Below are positions 121 to 29,019 of a stretch of DNA of 29,019 nt, one piece after another. The stretch covers positions 1-29,019 of the IMG/VR virus record IMGVR_UViG_3300036985_004639; one strand, given 5' to 3'. The DNA is from a virus. How positions within the stretch are numbered: the stretch's first letter is position 1; each line of letters begins with the position of its first letter. The position numbers and the translations under genes are program-made. The notes under the pieces are model-generated. The model ran no database searches. It saw only the letters and a list, made by a program, of their open reading frames with translations, and had not been told where the DNA came from.

Positions 121-531
121 ATGCGCGTGAAAAATAGAATCCTGATCGCGGATACCGATCGCTCGGTACTCCACAATTTTGCGGAATACCTGCGCGAAAA
201 TGCTTTTTGCGCAATTACCACCCAATCAACGGTAGGGGCGTTGACCCAGCTTATCGAGGCCGGGCCTCCTATTGATTTATTTTTGGTGGATTTCGAAATC
301 GCAAAAGCGGGGGATTGGCACTTGATCCGATATATTCGGCGGACGCTGGTAATCACCCCGGTGCAATTGCCGATCATAGTATTCGCCCCTATTCTGGGGG
401 TGGATATCGAAATGACCCTCATGCGGGAAGAAATTAACGACTGGCTAGAAAAGCCCGTATGTCCGCTGGCTTTACTGCTACCTAAAATACGAGCCCTACT
501 CGGGCTAGAAGGGGCTACCAGTGGACAGTGA
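121..531 (+). CDS. orphan response-regulator receiver (REC) domain protein
   Basis: The 136-residue product is a single CheY-like receiver domain with no output domain. Strand beta1 (ILIADTD) carries the acidic pair Asp11 and Asp13. Strand beta3 (DLFLVDFE) places the expected phospho-acceptor at Asp57. The beta5 motif EKP supplies Lys111-Pro112. The conserved Thr/Ser after beta4 appears to be Ala89 (PIIVFAP), which may change the switching behaviour. In canonical family members, the Asp is phosphorylated by a histidine kinase. There is no clear Shine-Dalgarno sequence before ATG 121. The end of the gene overlaps the next gene by 11 bases, so it belongs to the phage cluster and is not an isolated host gene. 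The fold call is fairly firm; the role (host signalling decoy, regulator or structural adaptor) is unknown. Confidence 0.72.
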   Translation: MRVKNRILIADTDRSVLHNFAEYLRENAFCAITTQSTVGALTQLIEAGPPIDLFLVDFEIAKAGDWHLIRYIRRTLVITPVQLPIIVFAPILGVDIEMTLMREEINDWLEKPVCPLALLLPKIRALLGLEGATSGQ

Positions 532-997
532 AACGCGCACTCTGATCACGGCCGTGGTGGGTAGTTTCGCCGTAACCACAACGGTGATTGGTATCCTTTT
601 CCGGCAATTGCTCAAGAGCTATCGAGACCACGACGCGCAACGGTTCGAGGTGCTCCGGAGCGAGTACACCATGCAGATAGAGGCGCTCCGAAAAAGCGCG
701 CAGGATACGATCGAAGCGCGAAGAGAATGCGAATTGCGGGAGAATGGCGCGTTGAAGCGGCTCGAGGACGGGATCGAAAAAATCCGGGACAGATGGGAGC
801 AGTTTGTCCGGGATGACGCGGCCATGGAAGCCACCCGCGGGCGCAAGGTGGATGCCCTATTCAACGTCGTCGATTATGTAAAAGAAGAGGTGCGCGGATT
901 GAAGCCAGTGATATTTCAACGGCTGGATGAGGGATACCGCAAAATAAAAACAGAGGTGATCCAAGAAATCCGGGCAGATTTACGGAAAGGTGCGTAG
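521..997 (+). CDS. membrane-anchored coiled-coil protein
   Basis: The start is GTG at 521, preceded by a purine-rich GAAGGGG (508-514), and it overlaps the receiver gene by 11 bases. The 158-residue product has one hydrophobic segment at about residues 8-29 (LITAVVGSFAVTTTVIGILF). A long charged helix rich in Glu, Arg and Lys follows and should form a coiled coil through about residue 110. This is a bitopic inner-membrane topology with a long soluble helical tail. Inner-membrane spanins and some holin-associated proteins look like this, but no diagnostic motif is visible and no lipoprotein partner with a Cys lipobox is seen nearby. Function is therefore open. A tie to the receiver protein through co-translation is an inference from the overlap. 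Confidence 0.6.
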   Translation: MDSETRTLITAVVGSFAVTTTVIGILFRQLLKSYRDHDAQRFEVLRSEYTMQIEALRKSAQDTIEARRECELRENGALKRLEDGIEKIRDRWEQFVRDDAAMEATRGRKVDALFNVVDYVKEEVRGLKPVIFQRLDEGYRKIKTEVIQEIRADLRKGA

Positions 998-1000
998 GCC

Positions 1001-1204
1001 ATGGACATTGAAACCGACGCTACCCCCACCCCGCGATACAGCGCAGAGTACAGCCCACTATGGGATAATAGAGGCATGCTAGAGCAGTTTGATTTGCTGC
1101 AAGCGGTTTTCGAATCCATGCTTGATGAAATCCGATCTTTTCGGGAATTGATGCAGGAACCCTCGGGGGAATTGGGAGCTAGCCTAGAAAGGGGCAAATC
1201 ATGA
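1001..1204 (+). CDS. small hypothetical protein
   Basis: This 67-residue acidic protein starts at ATG 1001, three bases after the previous stop. It ends in an ATGA overlap with the next gene (ATG 1201, stop TGA 1202-1204). Residues 1-25 are Thr/Pro/Tyr-rich and probably disordered; residues 27-50 (LEQFDLLQAVFESMLDEI) look like an amphipathic helix. No family is recognised. Its tight coupling to both neighbours is the main reason to treat it as real. Confidence 0.5.
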   Translation: MDIETDATPTPRYSAEYSPLWDNRGMLEQFDLLQAVFESMLDEIRSFRELMQEPSGELGASLERGKS

Positions 1205-1578
1205 CCATTATCGTCAAGCGTTTTGGGTGGGGTGAGCTGGTAGGCGTATTGCTCGGGTTGTTTATCGGATTGTTGTCCGCAAGCCTGGCCCAGAAGTTTA
1301 TTAGCCAGCAGGGGCCCGACCAGGCCAAGGCGCTGACCCCCTGGAAAGGTATCTGCGCCCAGACCCAGCAGCTCGCCCTTGTCCTCGAGCAGCAATTCCA
1401 GGCCATGGATACCCGCCTGGATAATATTGAGACGCAAACGGCTGGGCTGATAAAGGGCCAGGGCGATATTTTGCGGCATTTTTCCCTTCCGCCTATCGGG
1501 CTCATGACCATTCGCGTGGTGCCCACCATTCCGCTGATCGATGAGTGGGATTTGCGAGAATGTTTCAAAGAGCCCTAG
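1201..1578 (+). CDS. small single-span membrane protein
   Basis: The 125-residue product begins with a short basic stretch (VKRFGWG), followed by one strongly hydrophobic segment at about residues 12-30 (ELVGVLLGLFIGLLSASLA). A Gln-rich helical region (about 50-90, QQLALVLEQQFQAMDTRLDN) and a short C-terminal domain come next. ATG 1201 overlaps the upstream stop, so translation is coupled. Together with the 521-997 protein, this makes two single-span membrane proteins in four genes. That would fit a lysis or envelope module, but no holin, antiholin or spanin family signature can be confirmed by eye. Confidence 0.55.
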   Translation: MTIIVKRFGWGELVGVLLGLFIGLLSASLAQKFISQQGPDQAKALTPWKGICAQTQQLALVLEQQFQAMDTRLDNIETQTAGLIKGQGDILRHFSLPPIGLMTIRVVPTIPLIDEWDLRECFKEP

Positions 1579-1642
1579 TCTTTCCAATTTCCAGCATTTG
1601 CGGCAAGATAGTGGGTAGCACCACCAGAGAAAGGGCCAGGCG

Positions 1643-2665
1643 ATGGCGTCGATCGTGATCCAGATGGCAATCGAGGACCTCCAGGCGGTAATCGCGGCCT
1701 GGACTCACATAAAAATTTACCGATCCACCGATGGGCTGACCGGGGAATACGTGGAGATCAGCGAGCCCCACTCCAGGCCGGTGTTGCACAAATACCTGAC
1801 CCAGTATGATTTCACCGATTTTTACGGGGACGCGGATTTCTGGTACAAGTCGGCCTACCTCAATGAGGGCTCGGGGATCGAGTCGGAGCCTACTGCGGCT
1901 TTCCAGGGCACCCTGGACGCGGCCCTGGACATCATGTCGGTGAAGGAATTGAAGATCAATTACCTGTGGGGTGTGAACCTGACCGACGATTTTGGCTCGC
2001 CGTACCCGGATTCCATGATGGAATTCTATCTGCGCTCGGCGGTGGATACGGTCGAAAAAAAGCTCGACATCATGATCCGAAGCAAGGAAATCACGGACGA
2101 GGCGCACGATCTGATCCCCGATGACTACCGGGAGTATATGTGGATCAAAACCAAAGAAAAGCCGGTGCAGAGCATCACGTCCGTGAAGCTGGTGATGCCG
2201 GCCAATAGCCTGGTGCAGACATTCACCGGGGACGATATTTTGCTCGACCAGCAATTCGGGGTGATCCAGATCGTGCCTCCGGCGCTGGATGCGGGCAGCG
2301 TCTTGCTTTTCTCGGGCGCGGGGGCCTACCCGTGGGCCCGCAACCTCGTGCGGCGTATCCCGCACGCGTGGCGCGTGACCTATACCGCTGGCTTCGCCCG
2401 GGGCGAGGTCCCGGAGAATATCCGGCACCTGATCGGAATGTACGCGGCCATGGGCCCGCTCAATATCGCCGGAGACCTCATTGCTGGGGCCGGAATTGCC
2501 AGCCAGTCACTTTCCATTGACGGACTTTCTCAAGCAATATCAACTACTTCCAGCGCGACTAACGCGGGGTACGGGGCCAGAATTTTGCAATACTTGAAGG
2601 AAATCAAGGACATGCTCCCAGAAATGCGCAAGGCGTACCATGGAATAGGGTTTGTGGTGGCGTAA
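1643..2665 (+). CDS. head-tail connector-like protein with an Fn3-like N-terminus
   Basis: The 340-residue product starts at ATG 1643 after the purine-rich AGAAAGGG. Residues 20-85 read like a fibronectin-III-like beta sandwich: KIYRSTDGLTGEYVEI near the start, and WYKSAYLNEGSGIESEP as the closing strands. Residues 100-260 are predominantly helical with a central beta part. The position just upstream of neck and sheath genes suggests a connector or head-completion adaptor that joins portal to tail. The assignment rests on synteny and size rather than a diagnostic motif. The C-terminal helix (ARILQYLKEIKDMLPEMRKA) is well defined. The 64-base gap before the gene holds no visible terminator. 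Confidence 0.5.
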   Translation: MASIVIQMAIEDLQAVIAAWTHIKIYRSTDGLTGEYVEISEPHSRPVLHKYLTQYDFTDFYGDADFWYKSAYLNEGSGIESEPTAAFQGTLDAALDIMSVKELKINYLWGVNLTDDFGSPYPDSMMEFYLRSAVDTVEKKLDIMIRSKEITDEAHDLIPDDYREYMWIKTKEKPVQSITSVKLVMPANSLVQTFTGDDILLDQQFGVIQIVPPALDAGSVLLFSGAGAYPWARNLVRRIPHAWRVTYTAGFARGEVPENIRHLIGMYAAMGPLNIAGDLIAGAGIASQSLSIDGLSQAISTTSSATNAGYGARILQYLKEIKDMLPEMRKAYHGIGFVVA

Positions 2666-5332: not shown

Positions 5333-7636
5333 ATGGCCAGCAGCATTTTTTTCGGAGGCAGGCTGATCAGCGTGCCGGGCTCTTACAGTGTGGTGGACGC
5401 CAGTGGGCTGGAGTCTGTCGGGCTGAGCGCGGCCGGGATCGTGGCGGTGATTGGGGAGGCCGAGGGCGGTATCCCGGTTTCGGAAATCGCCGACATCGAC
5501 GATTTCATCCGGTGCCGGAAGCCGGAAAAGGCGCGGGAGTATTTCCGCGCGGGCCCGCTCCGGGAAGCGGCGGACATGGTATTCGCTCCGGCGAAGGACG
5601 TGGCCATCCCGGGCGGGGCGGTCGAGATGGTGGCCATGAAGGTCAACCCGGCCACCCAAGCCACGGCACCCCTGGCCAACACCTACGGGGATGCGCTCAC
5701 GTTGACCAGCAAGGACTACGGGGCTTTCACCAGCCAGGTGAATGTCACGATCGAAACCGGGACCAGCCAGGGCAAGCTGGTGACCATCACGTTCGAGGAC
5801 GTGGTGGAGTCGGCGGACGATCTGGGCGGTGACGCGTTTTTCACGATCACTTACACCAAGGGGACCGGTGGCTGGGGCACCATGACCAGCGAGGTCGCCA
5901 GTGGTGGCCTGATCGCTTGCCGCGGGACCCGTACCAACCTCGGGCTGGACGACCAGATCGCGGGGCAGTTGTCGGGCAATAGTCGGGTCGAGGCGAAATC
6001 GTCGAGTGCTTCGGATACAGCCATCCAGTTGATCGTTTACGGCCTGGCAGCGGCGGGAACGGTCCAGCAAGAGAGCATCATCCTCGCCGGCACCACGGTG
6101 GTGGCGGGGCTTCTGACTTTCTCGAAAGTCATGGGCGCGCGGATAGTCGGCACGGCCGTGGGAACAATCACGCTCCAGCTCCTAGCGGCCGGGGCAACGG
6201 TGTTGACGGTAGCAGCAGGGGCCAACACGATGAAGGGCTTGACCCCCTGCGCTACTCTGTACGTGGGCAATACGATCGTTTACGCGATATCCAGCGGGGC
6301 CAGCACCAAGAGCGTGATCCTGATCGGTACGAGCGCGGCCGGAGCGGCGCAGATCGAAAAGGTGGTGTTGACCGGGGTGGTTTCCAAGCCCGGAGTTTCC
6401 ACCTGGAGCGAGATCACTTATATCGCCCTCGGCGAGGTCGAGGCGGCCCAGACGATCACTTTCTCGGCGGTGGCGCTCCAGACCACGACCCTGCAAAACA
6501 CCATGCAGAAGGTCGCGGACTACGTGAACGGGCGAAACAACGGGACCAATGGTTTCGTCCTCACCCAGATTTTGGGGCTGTACACCTTCGACCCGGCCAA
6601 CCTGGACGTGACGCTGGGCGCAGGCGGCGCGGTGGACTGCTACACGGTGAGCCCGAGCTATTATGCCAACCTGTGGCGGATCGTGGATTGGATCAATCAG
6701 AATAGCGCCTTTGTCACTGCGGAAGCGGCGACCGGCGCCAAGGGCGGAGCCCCGAGCAACACTACAGCAGCGGTATATCTGTCCGGCGGTAGCGAGGGGA
6801 CCACGGCGGCCGAGCACTGGCAGTTGGCTTTCAACCTCCTGAAACAGATCCGAGTCAACACGGTGGTGCCCCTGACCGCTGACCCGGCGGTGCACGCCAT
6901 GGGCGACGCGCACTGCGCCTATATGTGCGGGATCGGCCGGAGCGAGCGCGACCAGGTGGTAGGCCTGAAAAATACGGCCATGACCGACCTGGCCACCAAG
7001 ACCGAAACAAAGACCCAGATCGTGGCGCTCAATTCGCGGCACACCCGGGCGGTATCCCAGGCGATGGAGCGGTACAACACGGCCGGCGAGCGGGAGGAGT
7101 TTGACCCCTGTTACCTGGCTGCGGTGGTCGCTGGGATGCAGGCGGGCTCGACCGTGGGCGAGTCGCTGACTTTCAAGTACGCAAACGTGCTCAAGCTCCG
7201 GCAGGCCTCGAGCTGGAACCCGACCGATGACGCCGAGGAGATGATCCAGGCGGGCCTTTGCTTCCTGGAGCTGGTGGACGGGATCGGTCGGCGGGTGGTC
7301 CGAAACAACACCACCCATCTGGCGACCAACAATTCCAGTTATGTCGAAGCAAGCGTCAATGAGGCGGTGAATTTTGCCGTTTACAACCTGCGCGGAAACC
7401 TCGAGGTGGCCGTCGGCCGCAAGGGCTTCTCCGGGACGGTCAACGGCACCAAGGGCGTGGCAATCGCCTCCCTCGGGTTGCTCAAAGACGAGGAAATCAT
7501 CGTGGCCGATCGGTCGCTGGCCGTGGAGCTAGCCGTGGATGTGATGGAGGTGTCCGTGGAGATGGCCCCAGTCATTCCGGTGAATTTTGTGAAAACAACC
7601 GTCCACCTCGTCACGACGCGGATCGCCGCGGTGTAA
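5333..7636 (+). CDS. contractile tail sheath protein
   Basis: The 767-residue product starts at ATG 5333 behind GAGGAGA. The N-terminus (MASSIFFGGRLISVPGSYSV) matches the sheath pattern of a short arm followed by a P-G-xY strand. The C-terminal third has the conserved sheath core: YMCGIGRSERDQVVGL, LAAVVAGMQAGSTVGESLT and a final strand VNFVKTTVHLVTTRIA. It would polymerise around the tail tube and contract during injection. T4 gp18 is 659 and Mu gpL 495 residues, so this one is enlarged. The extra length lies at about residues 130-390, which holds two related beta-rich segments (about 236-282 and 331-380). The direct downstream tube gene confirms the context. Confidence 0.9.
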   Translation: MASSIFFGGRLISVPGSYSVVDASGLESVGLSAAGIVAVIGEAEGGIPVSEIADIDDFIRCRKPEKAREYFRAGPLREAADMVFAPAKDVAIPGGAVEMVAMKVNPATQATAPLANTYGDALTLTSKDYGAFTSQVNVTIETGTSQGKLVTITFEDVVESADDLGGDAFFTITYTKGTGGWGTMTSEVASGGLIACRGTRTNLGLDDQIAGQLSGNSRVEAKSSSASDTAIQLIVYGLAAAGTVQQESIILAGTTVVAGLLTFSKVMGARIVGTAVGTITLQLLAAGATVLTVAAGANTMKGLTPCATLYVGNTIVYAISSGASTKSVILIGTSAAGAAQIEKVVLTGVVSKPGVSTWSEITYIALGEVEAAQTITFSAVALQTTTLQNTMQKVADYVNGRNNGTNGFVLTQILGLYTFDPANLDVTLGAGGAVDCYTVSPSYYANLWRIVDWINQNSAFVTAEAATGAKGGAPSNTTAAVYLSGGSEGTTAAEHWQLAFNLLKQIRVNTVVPLTADPAVHAMGDAHCAYMCGIGRSERDQVVGLKNTAMTDLATKTETKTQIVALNSRHTRAVSQAMERYNTAGEREEFDPCYLAAVVAGMQAGSTVGESLTFKYANVLKLRQASSWNPTDDAEEMIQAGLCFLELVDGIGRRVVRNNTTHLATNNSSYVEASVNEAVNFAVYNLRGNLEVAVGRKGFSGTVNGTKGVAIASLGLLKDEEIIVADRSLAVELAVDVMEVSVEMAPVIPVNFVKTTVHLVTTRIAAV

Positions 7637-25744: not shown

Positions 25745-28700
25745 ATGGCAGTGCTCACGGTACAATCAGTTGAAATAATCAGCAGCACAACGGTACGCTT
25801 GGAAGTCACCGGTATGCAAGTGGGGGTAGTTTACAATGTAGAAGTGAGCGAGGAGATAGAATCCCTTTCTGGCAGATTGATAGATCCAGCGTACAATGCT
25901 GCGGATTTTACGGGAGACGGCACTATTCCCCAGCTTCTTTCGGTCGTGTTGGTAGACGCGCTGCACATAGATTTGGTTTTCTCAAAGCCCATGATTGACG
26001 ACCCCATATTGCTGTACCCTACCAACTATACCGTAACTGGCGACATGGATAGCGGCACCACCCTGGTGGAGCGCAATGAAGCTGGAGACGGGGTGCGGCT
26101 CACGTTAGCAGATCCTTTGCTGTACGGCGACTATCGCGTTGCCCTGGACAATTGCCCCGATACCGATGGAAATCTTGTACCGCCAGAAAACGCAGAAATG
26201 GATTTTTCCTCTGTTCGAGAAAATCCGGTAAGCGATCTGGTTACGATGCTAACCGACAATACGGACGAGTGCCTGATCGAGGTTAGGGCAATTGGCATAA
26301 TGGTGGATGGAGTATACCCAGAAATCGCACTTAGGCTTTTCGGGGAAGAGGTGGTCCGCTGGAGTGATGTCCGGGGCAAGGTCGAATACTATCAAGCGGA
26401 AAGAAATGGCTATCTGCATGCGGGAAAAGTAACCCCCGCTGATATCCAGGTGGCGTATACCAATGACGTGCTAGGCGGCCCCGAGCAAGAGTGCTTGGCT
26501 TTCTGGGAGCTGGACGCGGCTTCTACAGTAACGGCCGCATACCAATATGAGCGGTTCGATCGCTTTCGCCCTTCCGCAAAAATGACGCTGACTGCCCCCT
26601 CGGCCGGAGGAGATGTCAATCGGCTTAATGCGCTGAGCCAGGATCTCCCCGAGGTGGTGGTGGGTCAGACGGTTATCATTTCTGGCCAGGTTAAAATGCT
26701 GGAGGGAGTTACCGCGCGGGTGCGCTTTACGCTAGGGACGGAAGAGGGGCTCCTGGTATCCACTCTGGATTTGGAGGGGACAGGGGACTGGGAAAGTTTT
26801 CGACTGGAGCCCCTGGTGGCGACTCTGGGGAATACAGAGGGGCGAGTTAGCTTGATCGTGGTATCCCCGGATGTCGGGAGCACTGTGGCCGAATGGCGAG
26901 ATATTCGGGCGGGGCTCGAGCTTCTGGAGAATTGTAATTTCGAGACCACGATCGAGCCCTGGTACACCCATCTCGGGAGCAAGTGTTTCCCTACGCTCTT
27001 GACCGAAGAGGCGGGCCCTTACGGTCACGCCGAGCTTACGATCCTGGAGACAGAGCCCAGCAAGCGGTTTTACCATAGCGTTTCTTTTGATGCTCACCGG
27101 GGCAAGGTGGTGCTTTTTGGCGGGAATGATGGAGTGGTCAAGGGCGATACCTGGGAATATACAACGGCCACCCATACCTGGGCAAAAATAACACCGGCCA
27201 CGACCTCCCCCAGTGCTCGAGGCCTGCACGCCGCGTGCTACGACAGCCTACGGCACCGGGTAATCATCTCCGGCGGGCAAGATAGCGGTGGGGGACATTT
27301 GCAGGACCTTTGGGCGTGGGATGGAGTGGACTGGACCGACATCACGCCGGTGGGCACCAAGCCCGGGGCTCGGCGAGCGCATGCGATTGCCTATGATTCC
27401 AATCGTGACGTGATCATGCTCTTTGGCGGGGTAGCCAGTGTAAAAAACAATGAAACCTGGGAGTATAATTGCGCAACCGGTTTGTGGGCTGAGATTTTCC
27501 CAGTCGCAGGCATAAAACCGTCTCCTCGCCAGTATCACACCATGGAATACGATACCGTGAAAAGACGGCTGGTGCTCTTTGGAGGTAGGACAGAGACCAA
27601 CCATTCGGATGAGACCTGGGAATACAACGGAGGGATTCAATCCTGGGCGCTGATGACAATAGCGGGGGATAAGCCGACCGCGCGGGATGAGCACAAAATG
27701 GCCTATGATTCGGTGCGTAGGCGCATGCTTATTTTCGGCGGGAACGACGGGGCTTACAGTGCTACTTCTTTTGATGACGAAACCTGGGAATATGATAGCG
27801 CGACCGTGAGCTGGAGTATGGTGCAGGGCGGCGGAGATCCTGGAGGTAGCAATCCAATGGGGCGGGTTGCTTTCGGCATGACATATGACTCTATTGCCCA
27901 GCGTAGTGTGCTATTCGGCGGATGGACAGGGGCCATCCGTAATAATGAAACTTGGGAATTTTCAGGGAGCACGACAAGCTGGGCGCTGCAATATGCCGGG
28001 TATGACCCTCTGAATTACGGATCAAGCCATTGGAATTCTATCCTCCAGGCTCCGGGAGAAATCCCCGACGGATCGCAGATCCGACTTCGCGGAAAATTCA
28101 GAGCCCCAGTGGATACTGAATTGCGTATCCACGTATACGCCATACCGTGGACCACGGGGGTGATTGGGGCCTGGGGGCCCTTTTCTGGATCAGGAGACTG
28201 GGAGGATTTCGAACTAGCTGATGTGGTAGTGGATACCGACCATCGCGATGTGCAAATCCGGTTGGCGATCCATCTCCCAGATGCGACAGGGAGCTGGGCT
28301 GACTGGAAAGATATTTCGCTCACGCGAAACATTATCCGAAACGGCACTTTTTCCGACCGAGGAGCGTTGATCGACGCGGTTTTGATTGACGGGAAAATTT
28401 ACGAGACCGAGGGCGCCGAGGTGCTATCCACGGGATCGTGGCTTCCCGGAGACGGGGCGTTACCCAGCCCGGGATACCGGCAAACCGAGGTGCTGACCAA
28501 TAACGGGTATTTCGATTTTGCCGGGGTGAGTGACGAGGAGATCCTGGATGGTGTTGACGCGCGGATCGATACCTACAGGAAAGGAAACGGGGTCATTTCC
28601 GTAGTGAATGGGGTTGGCCAACCGGTGGTAGGGGTTGACGTGACGGTGGAGCAGCTTACCCATTCTTTCCTTTTTGGGTCGGGTATATTCGAATGGTATG

Positions 28701-29019
28701 AGAGTTATGTGGCCCCAGGGTATCCTCCTCTGACCGAGGCCCAGCAGCTTTGGTCCGATACGTGGCGCGCGTTGTTTTTGGACGTTTTCAATTTCGCAAC
28801 CCTCCCCTATTACTGGGTGAGCGGCGAGCTGGAAAATGGGTCCATGCTTCACGCGGCAAATTACGAGGCCCTAGCCTGGTGTCTGGCCAATGGAGTACAG
28901 GCCAAGGGGCACCCTATCTTTTGGAACGCGGACGAGCCAGCGTGGATCAATAATTGGAGTGATCTAGATGCGGTAAAAGCGCGGGTTTTCGGATACCTCG
29001 AAAAGTGTATCGGAAATAG
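25745..29019 (+). CDS. tail protein with Ig-like anchor, Kelch propeller, CBM-like and GH10-like domains (partial at 3' end)
   Basis: Starts at ATG 25745 behind GAAGGGG and stays open to the window edge (1091 codons plus two bases). Residues 1-155 match the anchor of the preceding gene (PQLLSVVLVDALHIDLVFSK). Residues 225-390 look like a CBM4/9-type jelly-roll, and a second copy begins near 392 (ENCNFETTIEPWY). It is interrupted at 440-748 by six Kelch repeats (HTMEYDTVKRRLVLFGGRTE type, each with a GG and a WEY/WEF), then resumes to about 860. From about 938 it follows a GH10 glycanase pattern (DARIDTYRKGNGVISVVNGV, then FNFATLPYYW at 1015-1024 and KGHPIFW at 1054-1060). The catalytic Glu motifs would lie beyond the edge, so activity cannot be judged. 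Confidence 0.8.
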   Translation, partial: MAVLTVQSVEIISSTTVRLEVTGMQVGVVYNVEVSEEIESLSGRLIDPAYNAADFTGDGTIPQLLSVVLVDALHIDLVFSKPMIDDPILLYPTNYTVTGDMDSGTTLVERNEAGDGVRLTLADPLLYGDYRVALDNCPDTDGNLVPPENAEMDFSSVRENPVSDLVTMLTDNTDECLIEVRAIGIMVDGVYPEIALRLFGEEVVRWSDVRGKVEYYQAERNGYLHAGKVTPADIQVAYTNDVLGGPEQECLAFWELDAASTVTAAYQYERFDRFRPSAKMTLTAPSAGGDVNRLNALSQDLPEVVVGQTVIISGQVKMLEGVTARVRFTLGTEEGLLVSTLDLEGTGDWESFRLEPLVATLGNTEGRVSLIVVSPDVGSTVAEWRDIRAGLELLENCNFETTIEPWYTHLGSKCFPTLLTEEAGPYGHAELTILETEPSKRFYHSVSFDAHRGKVVLFGGNDGVVKGDTWEYTTATHTWAKITPATTSPSARGLHAACYDSLRHRVIISGGQDSGGGHLQDLWAWDGVDWTDITPVGTKPGARRAHAIAYDSNRDVIMLFGGVASVKNNETWEYNCATGLWAEIFPVAGIKPSPRQYHTMEYDTVKRRLVLFGGRTETNHSDETWEYNGGIQSWALMTIAGDKPTARDEHKMAYDSVRRRMLIFGGNDGAYSATSFDDETWEYDSATVSWSMVQGGGDPGGSNPMGRVAFGMTYDSIAQRSVLFGGWTGAIRNNETWEFSGSTTSWALQYAGYDPLNYGSSHWNSILQAPGEIPDGSQIRLRGKFRAPVDTELRIHVYAIPWTTGVIGAWGPFSGSGDWEDFELADVVVDTDHRDVQIRLAIHLPDATGSWADWKDISLTRNIIRNGTFSDRGALIDAVLIDGKIYETEGAEVLSTGSWLPGDGALPSPGYRQTEVLTNNGYFDFAGVSDEEILDGVDARIDTYRKGNGVISVVNGVGQPVVGVDVTVEQLTHSFLFGSGIFEWYESYVAPGYPPLTEAQQLWSDTWRALFLDVFNFATLPYYWVSGELENGSMLHAANYEALAWCLANGVQAKGHPIFWNADEPAWINNWSDLDAVKARVFGYLEKCIGN
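27068..27988 (+). repeat. six Kelch-type repeats coding a beta-propeller
   Basis: Six successive units of about 50-60 codons each carry the order aromatic/His - YDS-like turn - V-x-x-FGG - (D/N)xTWEY - W. Examples are HSVSFDAHRGKVVLFGG, HAIAYDSNRDVIMLFGG and GMTYDSIAQRSVLFGG. Six copies would close a six-bladed propeller. The units have diverged at DNA level, unlike the Fn3 repeats upstream. Confidence 0.8.

Follow-up and report, generated by a model that had tools for sequence, protein, structure and literature searches.

A predicted stand-alone receiver in an SPO1-like phage fragment is encoded in a conserved gene pair with a putative membrane-anchored partner

The gene at positions 121–531 (plus strand) of a 29-kb IMG/VR virus record, whose whole 29,019 nucleotides are referred to here as the window, is predicted to encode a stand-alone receiver (REC) protein of 136 amino acids. 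It forms a conserved pair with the gene for a second protein, which we call TMCC. The partnership is the conserved feature, and phosphorylation looks optional; the evidence throughout comes from sequence analysis and structure modelling. Our main reading, to which we assign a probability of about one half, is that REC would serve as the cytoplasmic partner in a two-protein module specific to phages, docked on TMCC and with a late role at the inner membrane, whose phosphorylation site was lost in several lineages. No paper on the REC-TMCC pair was found in the open literature, a scope that leaves out most subscription journals and all bioRxiv preprints, and the same holds for the phage REC-sigma pair described below.

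The initial annotation had described a receiver domain without an output domain. Indeed, the gene is an intact ORF of 136 codons with no room for an output domain, and a search with the Pfam Response_reg profile (PF00072) matched residues 7–115 (E 6.4e-6, 26.8 bits). This score lies below the gathering score of 30.2, which same-family relatives pass (L036 44.7, L111 83.1, G016/L030 41.7 and G031/L056 32.4 bits). The protein was also matched by phrog_731, and receivers of known structure match it at the sequence level. An AlphaFold2 model from a 10-row family alignment (pLDDT 85.5, pTM 0.82) displayed the (beta-alpha)5 order, with strands at residues 6–10, 30–34, 53–57, 85–89 and 107–110 and the phospho-Asp position at the end of beta3. 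With a cut-off of E <= 0.001, Foldseek returned 502 PDB matches; those listed, 50 in number, were receivers or receiver-containing proteins, RssB (~30% identity) among them. The profile match, the confident model and the relatives thus bear out the receiver assignment as a prediction, and a chance ORF was ruled out by homologues, selection and fold. Used alone, the window REC query (P0001) found the near-identical contig as its sole match in viral_contigs, no match in genome_contigs and weak matches only in the phages set.

The TMCC gene (521–997, plus strand; 158 amino acids) begins at a GTG that overlaps the end of REC by 11 nt, and its likely ribosome-binding site, AGAAGGGG at 507–514 (plus strand), lies within the REC coding sequence. 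The proposed translational coupling of REC to the next gene is consistent with both features, and the overlap recurs in relatives: it spans 11–23 nt in the nine contigs measured, apart from L056, where 5 nt separate REC from the ATG used. Two scans with TMCC-only queries yielded 11 contigs, all of which carry REC directly upstream, so that the anticipated receiver-membrane pairing was seen throughout this survey of related phages. The TMCC profile had been built from four of these contigs; the other seven are new, and the pairing in them is therefore independent of how the profile was made. REC and its overlapping TMCC gene are thus a conserved gene pair. No TMCC without REC was seen among the TMCC loci examined, and TMCC sequences were not found in the genome_contigs or phages sets. 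A small third protein (1001–1204, plus strand; 67 amino acids) follows TMCC in 9/11 TMCC contigs by profile. A 125-residue protein with one hydrophobic stretch comes after it (1201–1578, plus strand); it is present only in the window and the near-identical contig, and its membership in the module is therefore tentative.

No informative Pfam or PHROG family matched TMCC. Each of the 11 sequences examined has one hydrophobic N-terminal stretch, preceded by 0–1 and followed by three to five positive charges, a pattern which predicts a single transmembrane helix in N-out/C-in orientation and a charged cytoplasmic domain. Read by eye, the C-terminal domain is probably a coiled coil. The candidacy of TMCC as an Rz-like spanin was rejected on its predicted topology, opposite to the N-in/C-out topology of a spanin, and on the lack of a family match; no spanin match was obtained for the TMCC of L036, L111 or L056 at E <= 0.5.

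The window is a fragment of an SPO1-like myovirus in which REC lies between head genes and the head-tail adaptor. A contig that reaches further upstream (L002, 99.93% identical to the window over 8528 bp) carries genes for a maturation protease and a scaffold, for a major capsid protein of SPO1-like type (phrog_752, 4.7e-82) and for a head protein (phrog_16614); the head-protein gene stops immediately ahead of REC. Downstream, the module is bounded by a head-tail adaptor-like protein (1643–2665, plus strand; phrog_772 and phrog_442), and the tail sheath also follows in the window. The late-cluster setting that the initial annotation had assumed is supported by these head genes and the adaptor, and the possibility that REC belongs to host DNA beside an incomplete prophage was ruled out, as a head protein and an adaptor stand on its two sides in L002 and the window. 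Among deposited phages, the capsid is most similar (~37% identity) to those of Bacillus and Exiguobacterium phages, including SPO1. Most contigs of the survey are fragments. Alignment of the capsid matched 4/11 records; the seven without a match include several short fragments, and L127 was outside the search. As side observations on the tail region, the product of 4330–5001 matches PF23932 SP10_terminator just above the cut-off (28.2 versus 27 bits) at the position expected of a tail-completion protein. The 767-residue tail sheath (5333–7636) aligns with almost the full length of a 489-position sheath profile, and thus holds some 280 extra residues inside it. A very long ORF, open at the window end (25745–29017), presumably carries kelch-like repeats and a glycosidase-like C-terminal stretch.

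The location of the pair between head protein and adaptor raises the idea that REC and TMCC are a virion or assembly factor that helps to build the head or connector. The pair occupies this place in 4/17 contigs that hold both flanking genes and is missing from the other 13, one of which (L017) has the adaptor frame within about 200 bp after the head-protein frame; this occupancy identifies the REC-TMCC module as an optional insert. Moreover, membrane helices are uncommon in virion proteins, and L111 and L127 have no adaptor or head-protein match in the available stretch. We therefore regard an assembly role as quite unlikely.

In a receiver that can be phosphorylated, two acidic residues (DD1 and DD2), the phospho-acceptor Asp (D), a switch Thr/Ser (T) and a Lys (K) are expected, and a receiver without any one of these five is called a pseudo-receiver (Bourret et al., PMC12632262). 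The assignments of the initial annotation to phospho-acceptor (D57), switch (A89) and lysine (K111) were borne out by the alignment positions. Its acidic pair, Asp11 and Asp13, held for the first member: D11 is DD1, while an ungapped alignment across beta1-alpha1 places T12 at the DD2 position and D13, which is invariant within the REC family, one residue past it. The window REC thus lacks DD2 and the switch Thr/Ser and, judged by its aligned residues, is a pseudo-receiver under the published definition, two residues short. Its K-3 residue is W108, a position at which Tyr or Phe is usual in receivers (PMC12632262). In this respect it resembles the pseudo-receivers of atypical response regulators, which likewise miss at least one of the five residues. 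Those treated in that source are cellular, and the word "phage" is absent from its main text; unlike them, the phage REC family comprises complete and pseudo forms within one gene family. The window REC also has its fold and single-domain architecture in common with single-domain response regulators of the CheY/DivK type, and DivK is among the fold matches, but it differs from them in the missing DD2 and switch Thr/Ser and in that no kinase partner was found.

All five residues are present in 6/11 TMCC contigs (L036, L104, L108, L109, L111 and L127), and the remaining five lack at least one of them and are thus pseudo-receivers. DD2 is replaced by T in window/L002, H in L030, L in L056 and R in L105 and L106, the lysine position is E in L030, and Ala occupies the switch position only in window/L002. 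The phospho-Asp is kept in 9/11 contigs and is Glu in L105 and L106. The REC genes of these last two differ by 34 nucleotides and 7 residues (dN 0.026, dS 0.36; dN/dS about 0.07), and their TMCC genes by 28 nucleotides and one residue (dN 0.003, dS 0.28); most other pairs are close to silent-site saturation or nearly identical and were left out of the ratio. The low dN relative to dS means that selection acts on the REC protein even without the phospho-Asp, and REC of L105/L106 is under purifying selection despite Glu at this position. The same result disfavours the explanation that REC is neutral cargo, a gene of host origin that the phage carries along without any use for it: its optional presence and an active site that decays in several lineages would fit such cargo, but with selection at this level and the pair kept in 11/11 contigs we consider it very improbable. 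Trees of REC and TMCC were poorly resolved.

The claim that the window encodes no kinase held up more widely: HATPase_c was found in 0/11 records, the window included, with a control that was positive in 14/14 genomes. One of the records without it, G016 (109 kb), is probably complete, since a 126-bp repeat is common to both ends. A partner histidine kinase, the mark of a two-component system, was thus found in none of the 11 phage records, and a host kinase is possible. As no phage kinase is recognisable, the host or small phosphodonors would have to supply any phosphate.

The lack of a phage kinase, together with the REC fold and a phospho-Asp kept in 9/11 contigs, would also agree with interference in host two-component systems, in which REC, held at the membrane, would be a decoy or phosphate sink that binds histidine-kinase domains and alters host signalling; TMCC would bring REC to the membrane. 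However, alpha1, the kinase-facing helix of receivers, is the least conserved part of REC, with a mean entropy of 1.71 as against 0.50 for beta4, 0.73 for beta5 and 0.90 for alpha5. This comparison covered eight sequences out of ten distinct family REC proteins, counted with L002 set aside and L108 and L109 taken as one. A phosphate sink is unlikely in the window (no DD2 or T), L105/L106 (no D) and L030 (no K) because of these missing residues. A precedent for a phage protein that acts on kinases exists in PIT4 of phage LSL4, but PIT4 is reported as an early gene (PMC10714779), and REC sits among late structural genes. Interference of this kind therefore appears doubtful to us. The broader suggestion of the initial annotation, that REC may intercept host phosphorelays, is weakened for the window member because DD2 and the switch Thr/Ser are missing and 5/11 contigs are incomplete, two of them without the phospho-Asp; it is possible for the six complete members.

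Stand-alone receivers also occur in two isolated Alteromonas phages. In V22 (L128 24959–28235), ORF29 with a hydrophobic N-terminus and charged tail precedes the REC gene ORF30, ORF31 overlaps REC by 32 nt and matches an Rz-like spanin (phrog_4297, 7e-6), and a papain-like amidase gene lies before REC and ORF35, a DUF5675 gene, after it. We take DUF5675 to be lysis-related. In A5 (L129 4252–6366), the CheY-like gp11 is followed by gp12, which is 33% identical to V22 ORF31, and the annotated endolysin gp14, with the same order of small genes. Both CheY-like genes stand in what looks like a lysis cassette. As described in the two publications, they adjoin the host recognition module and are classed as putative auxiliary metabolic genes of class II (PMC7289586, PMC10579305). 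V22 gp30 and A5 gp11 resemble the window REC in that they are stand-alone, have small proteins with hydrophobic N-termini on both sides in a late region of the phage and overlap the next gene at the 3' end. They differ in that V22 is a Myoalterovirus and A5 a member of the Schitoviridae, phages different from that of the window; the relation to the window REC is at fold level only (hhalign 96%, 17% identity). In addition, the neighbours of the V22 REC are an Rz-like spanin and another membrane protein rather than TMCC, and it keeps D7, D8, D53, S83 and K105.

The analogous layout in V22 and A5 is the reason why, among late membrane events, lysis timing is favoured: REC-TMCC would be part of, or tune, the late lysis program, with the host state advancing or delaying lysis, much as the initial annotation had proposed. 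The overlap with a spanin match and the nearby DUF5675 gene in V22, and the path from gp11 to an endolysin in A5, point in this direction. So do an Amidase_2 gene (E 2.3e-12) that adjoins the pair on the other strand in L111 and a papain-like/NlpC-type gene (our own label; members match phrog_1128) upstream in 9/11 TMCC contigs by profile. By contrast, TMCC has no detectable relation to V22 ORF29 or ORF31 and a predicted topology opposite to that of a spanin, and the papain-like gene was not found in window/L002 and L056, where head or adaptor genes flank the module. No lysis family matched the neighbours of the window REC, so that flanking by spanin and endolysin as in V22/A5 is missing there; L111 has its amidase neighbour. 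No recognised lysis gene stands beside the module in the window clade, and in G016 the one peptidoglycan-binding ORF found lies ~50 kb from the pair (66/89 chosen ORFs scanned). Lysis timing is thus tentative by analogy, and possible as the likeliest of the late membrane events.

Divergent receivers are known from other phages as well. The cREC domains of jumbo phages, linked to NAD/ADP-ribose enzymes (PMC7824862), have in common with the window REC that they are a divergent receiver fold in phages. In the subset of ORFs scanned, no such enzyme was seen next to the window REC, and the adjoining products with a match were structural; G016 carries an ADP-ribosylglycohydrolase elsewhere in its record. 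The REC model matched a cyclic-phosphate receiver less well (TMq 0.62) than ordinary receivers (0.78). Further viral receivers are listed in BFVD.

A search with PF00072 yielded three matches in 13 records that have related capsids or adaptors, all to a different REC. It is encoded in G008, G009 and G010, whose capsid is 58% identical to that of L002, and has all five residues; its gene shares a 20-nt overlap with a sigma-70-family gene (Sigma70_r2 E 4e-13 to 3e-15), which a small membrane-type gene overlaps in turn. This operon lies at 6162–7684 in L013, upstream of protease-like and capsid genes, at 320–1848 (minus strand) in L020 and at 284–1824 (minus strand) in L022, three capsid relatives. 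REC (3/13 records) and sigma (3/15) occur in the same three records, and no sigma domain was found in the REC-TMCC records (0/9). Orthology with the window REC was ruled out, as P0001 does not match it and place and neighbours differ. Such coupling of a receiver to a sigma factor, both encoded by the phage, seems to merit a study of its own. In 50 further records (from 80 loci), PF00072 gave five matches. In G016, G019 and G031, as in the window, REC is flanked by capsid and adaptor genes, and the gene that overlaps or adjoins its end is a relative of window 521–997. Another REC (58 bits) lies in a 280-residue open frame in G029 and G030 (L097, L098) and is unrelated to the window family.

The gene pair suggests that REC and its putative membrane-anchored partner are a late-infection device at the host membrane. 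According to our main reading, REC would be made together with TMCC and most likely dock at the inner membrane on its cytoplasmic domain; gene overlap is frequent in phages and is no proof of binding. The lower variability of beta4, beta5 and alpha5 relative to alpha1, measured on eight sequences, speaks for this reading. The founding form was probably a phosphorylatable receiver, fed by host kinases or small phosphodonors because no phage kinase was found. In complete members phosphorylation would modulate docking, an effect lost in others: several lineages, including that of the window, would have lost parts of the phosphorylation site and kept a pseudo-receiver that works through contact with proteins. 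The module would most likely act late in infection at the inner membrane of the host, for example to time lysis or to protect the infected cell. A fuller version, which we hold to be unlikely as a whole, is a phage-specific membrane-docked receiver switch that sets a late membrane event such as lysis timing, in which complete members read the state of host phosphorelays and others are constitutive pseudo-receivers; V22 and A5 would have reached a similar solution, apparently independently.

Phage stand-alone receivers have so far been catalogued among auxiliary metabolic genes with no mechanism attached; the 11 contigs link one of them to a particular membrane partner. The family offers a natural series from complete sites to Glu-for-Asp: equal behaviour of its members would mean that phosphorylation is irrelevant, and differing behaviour that the phage listens to its host. 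How pseudo-receivers work outside plants is described as remarkably little known (PMC12632262), and the REC-TMCC family may serve as a small system in which to ask this question.
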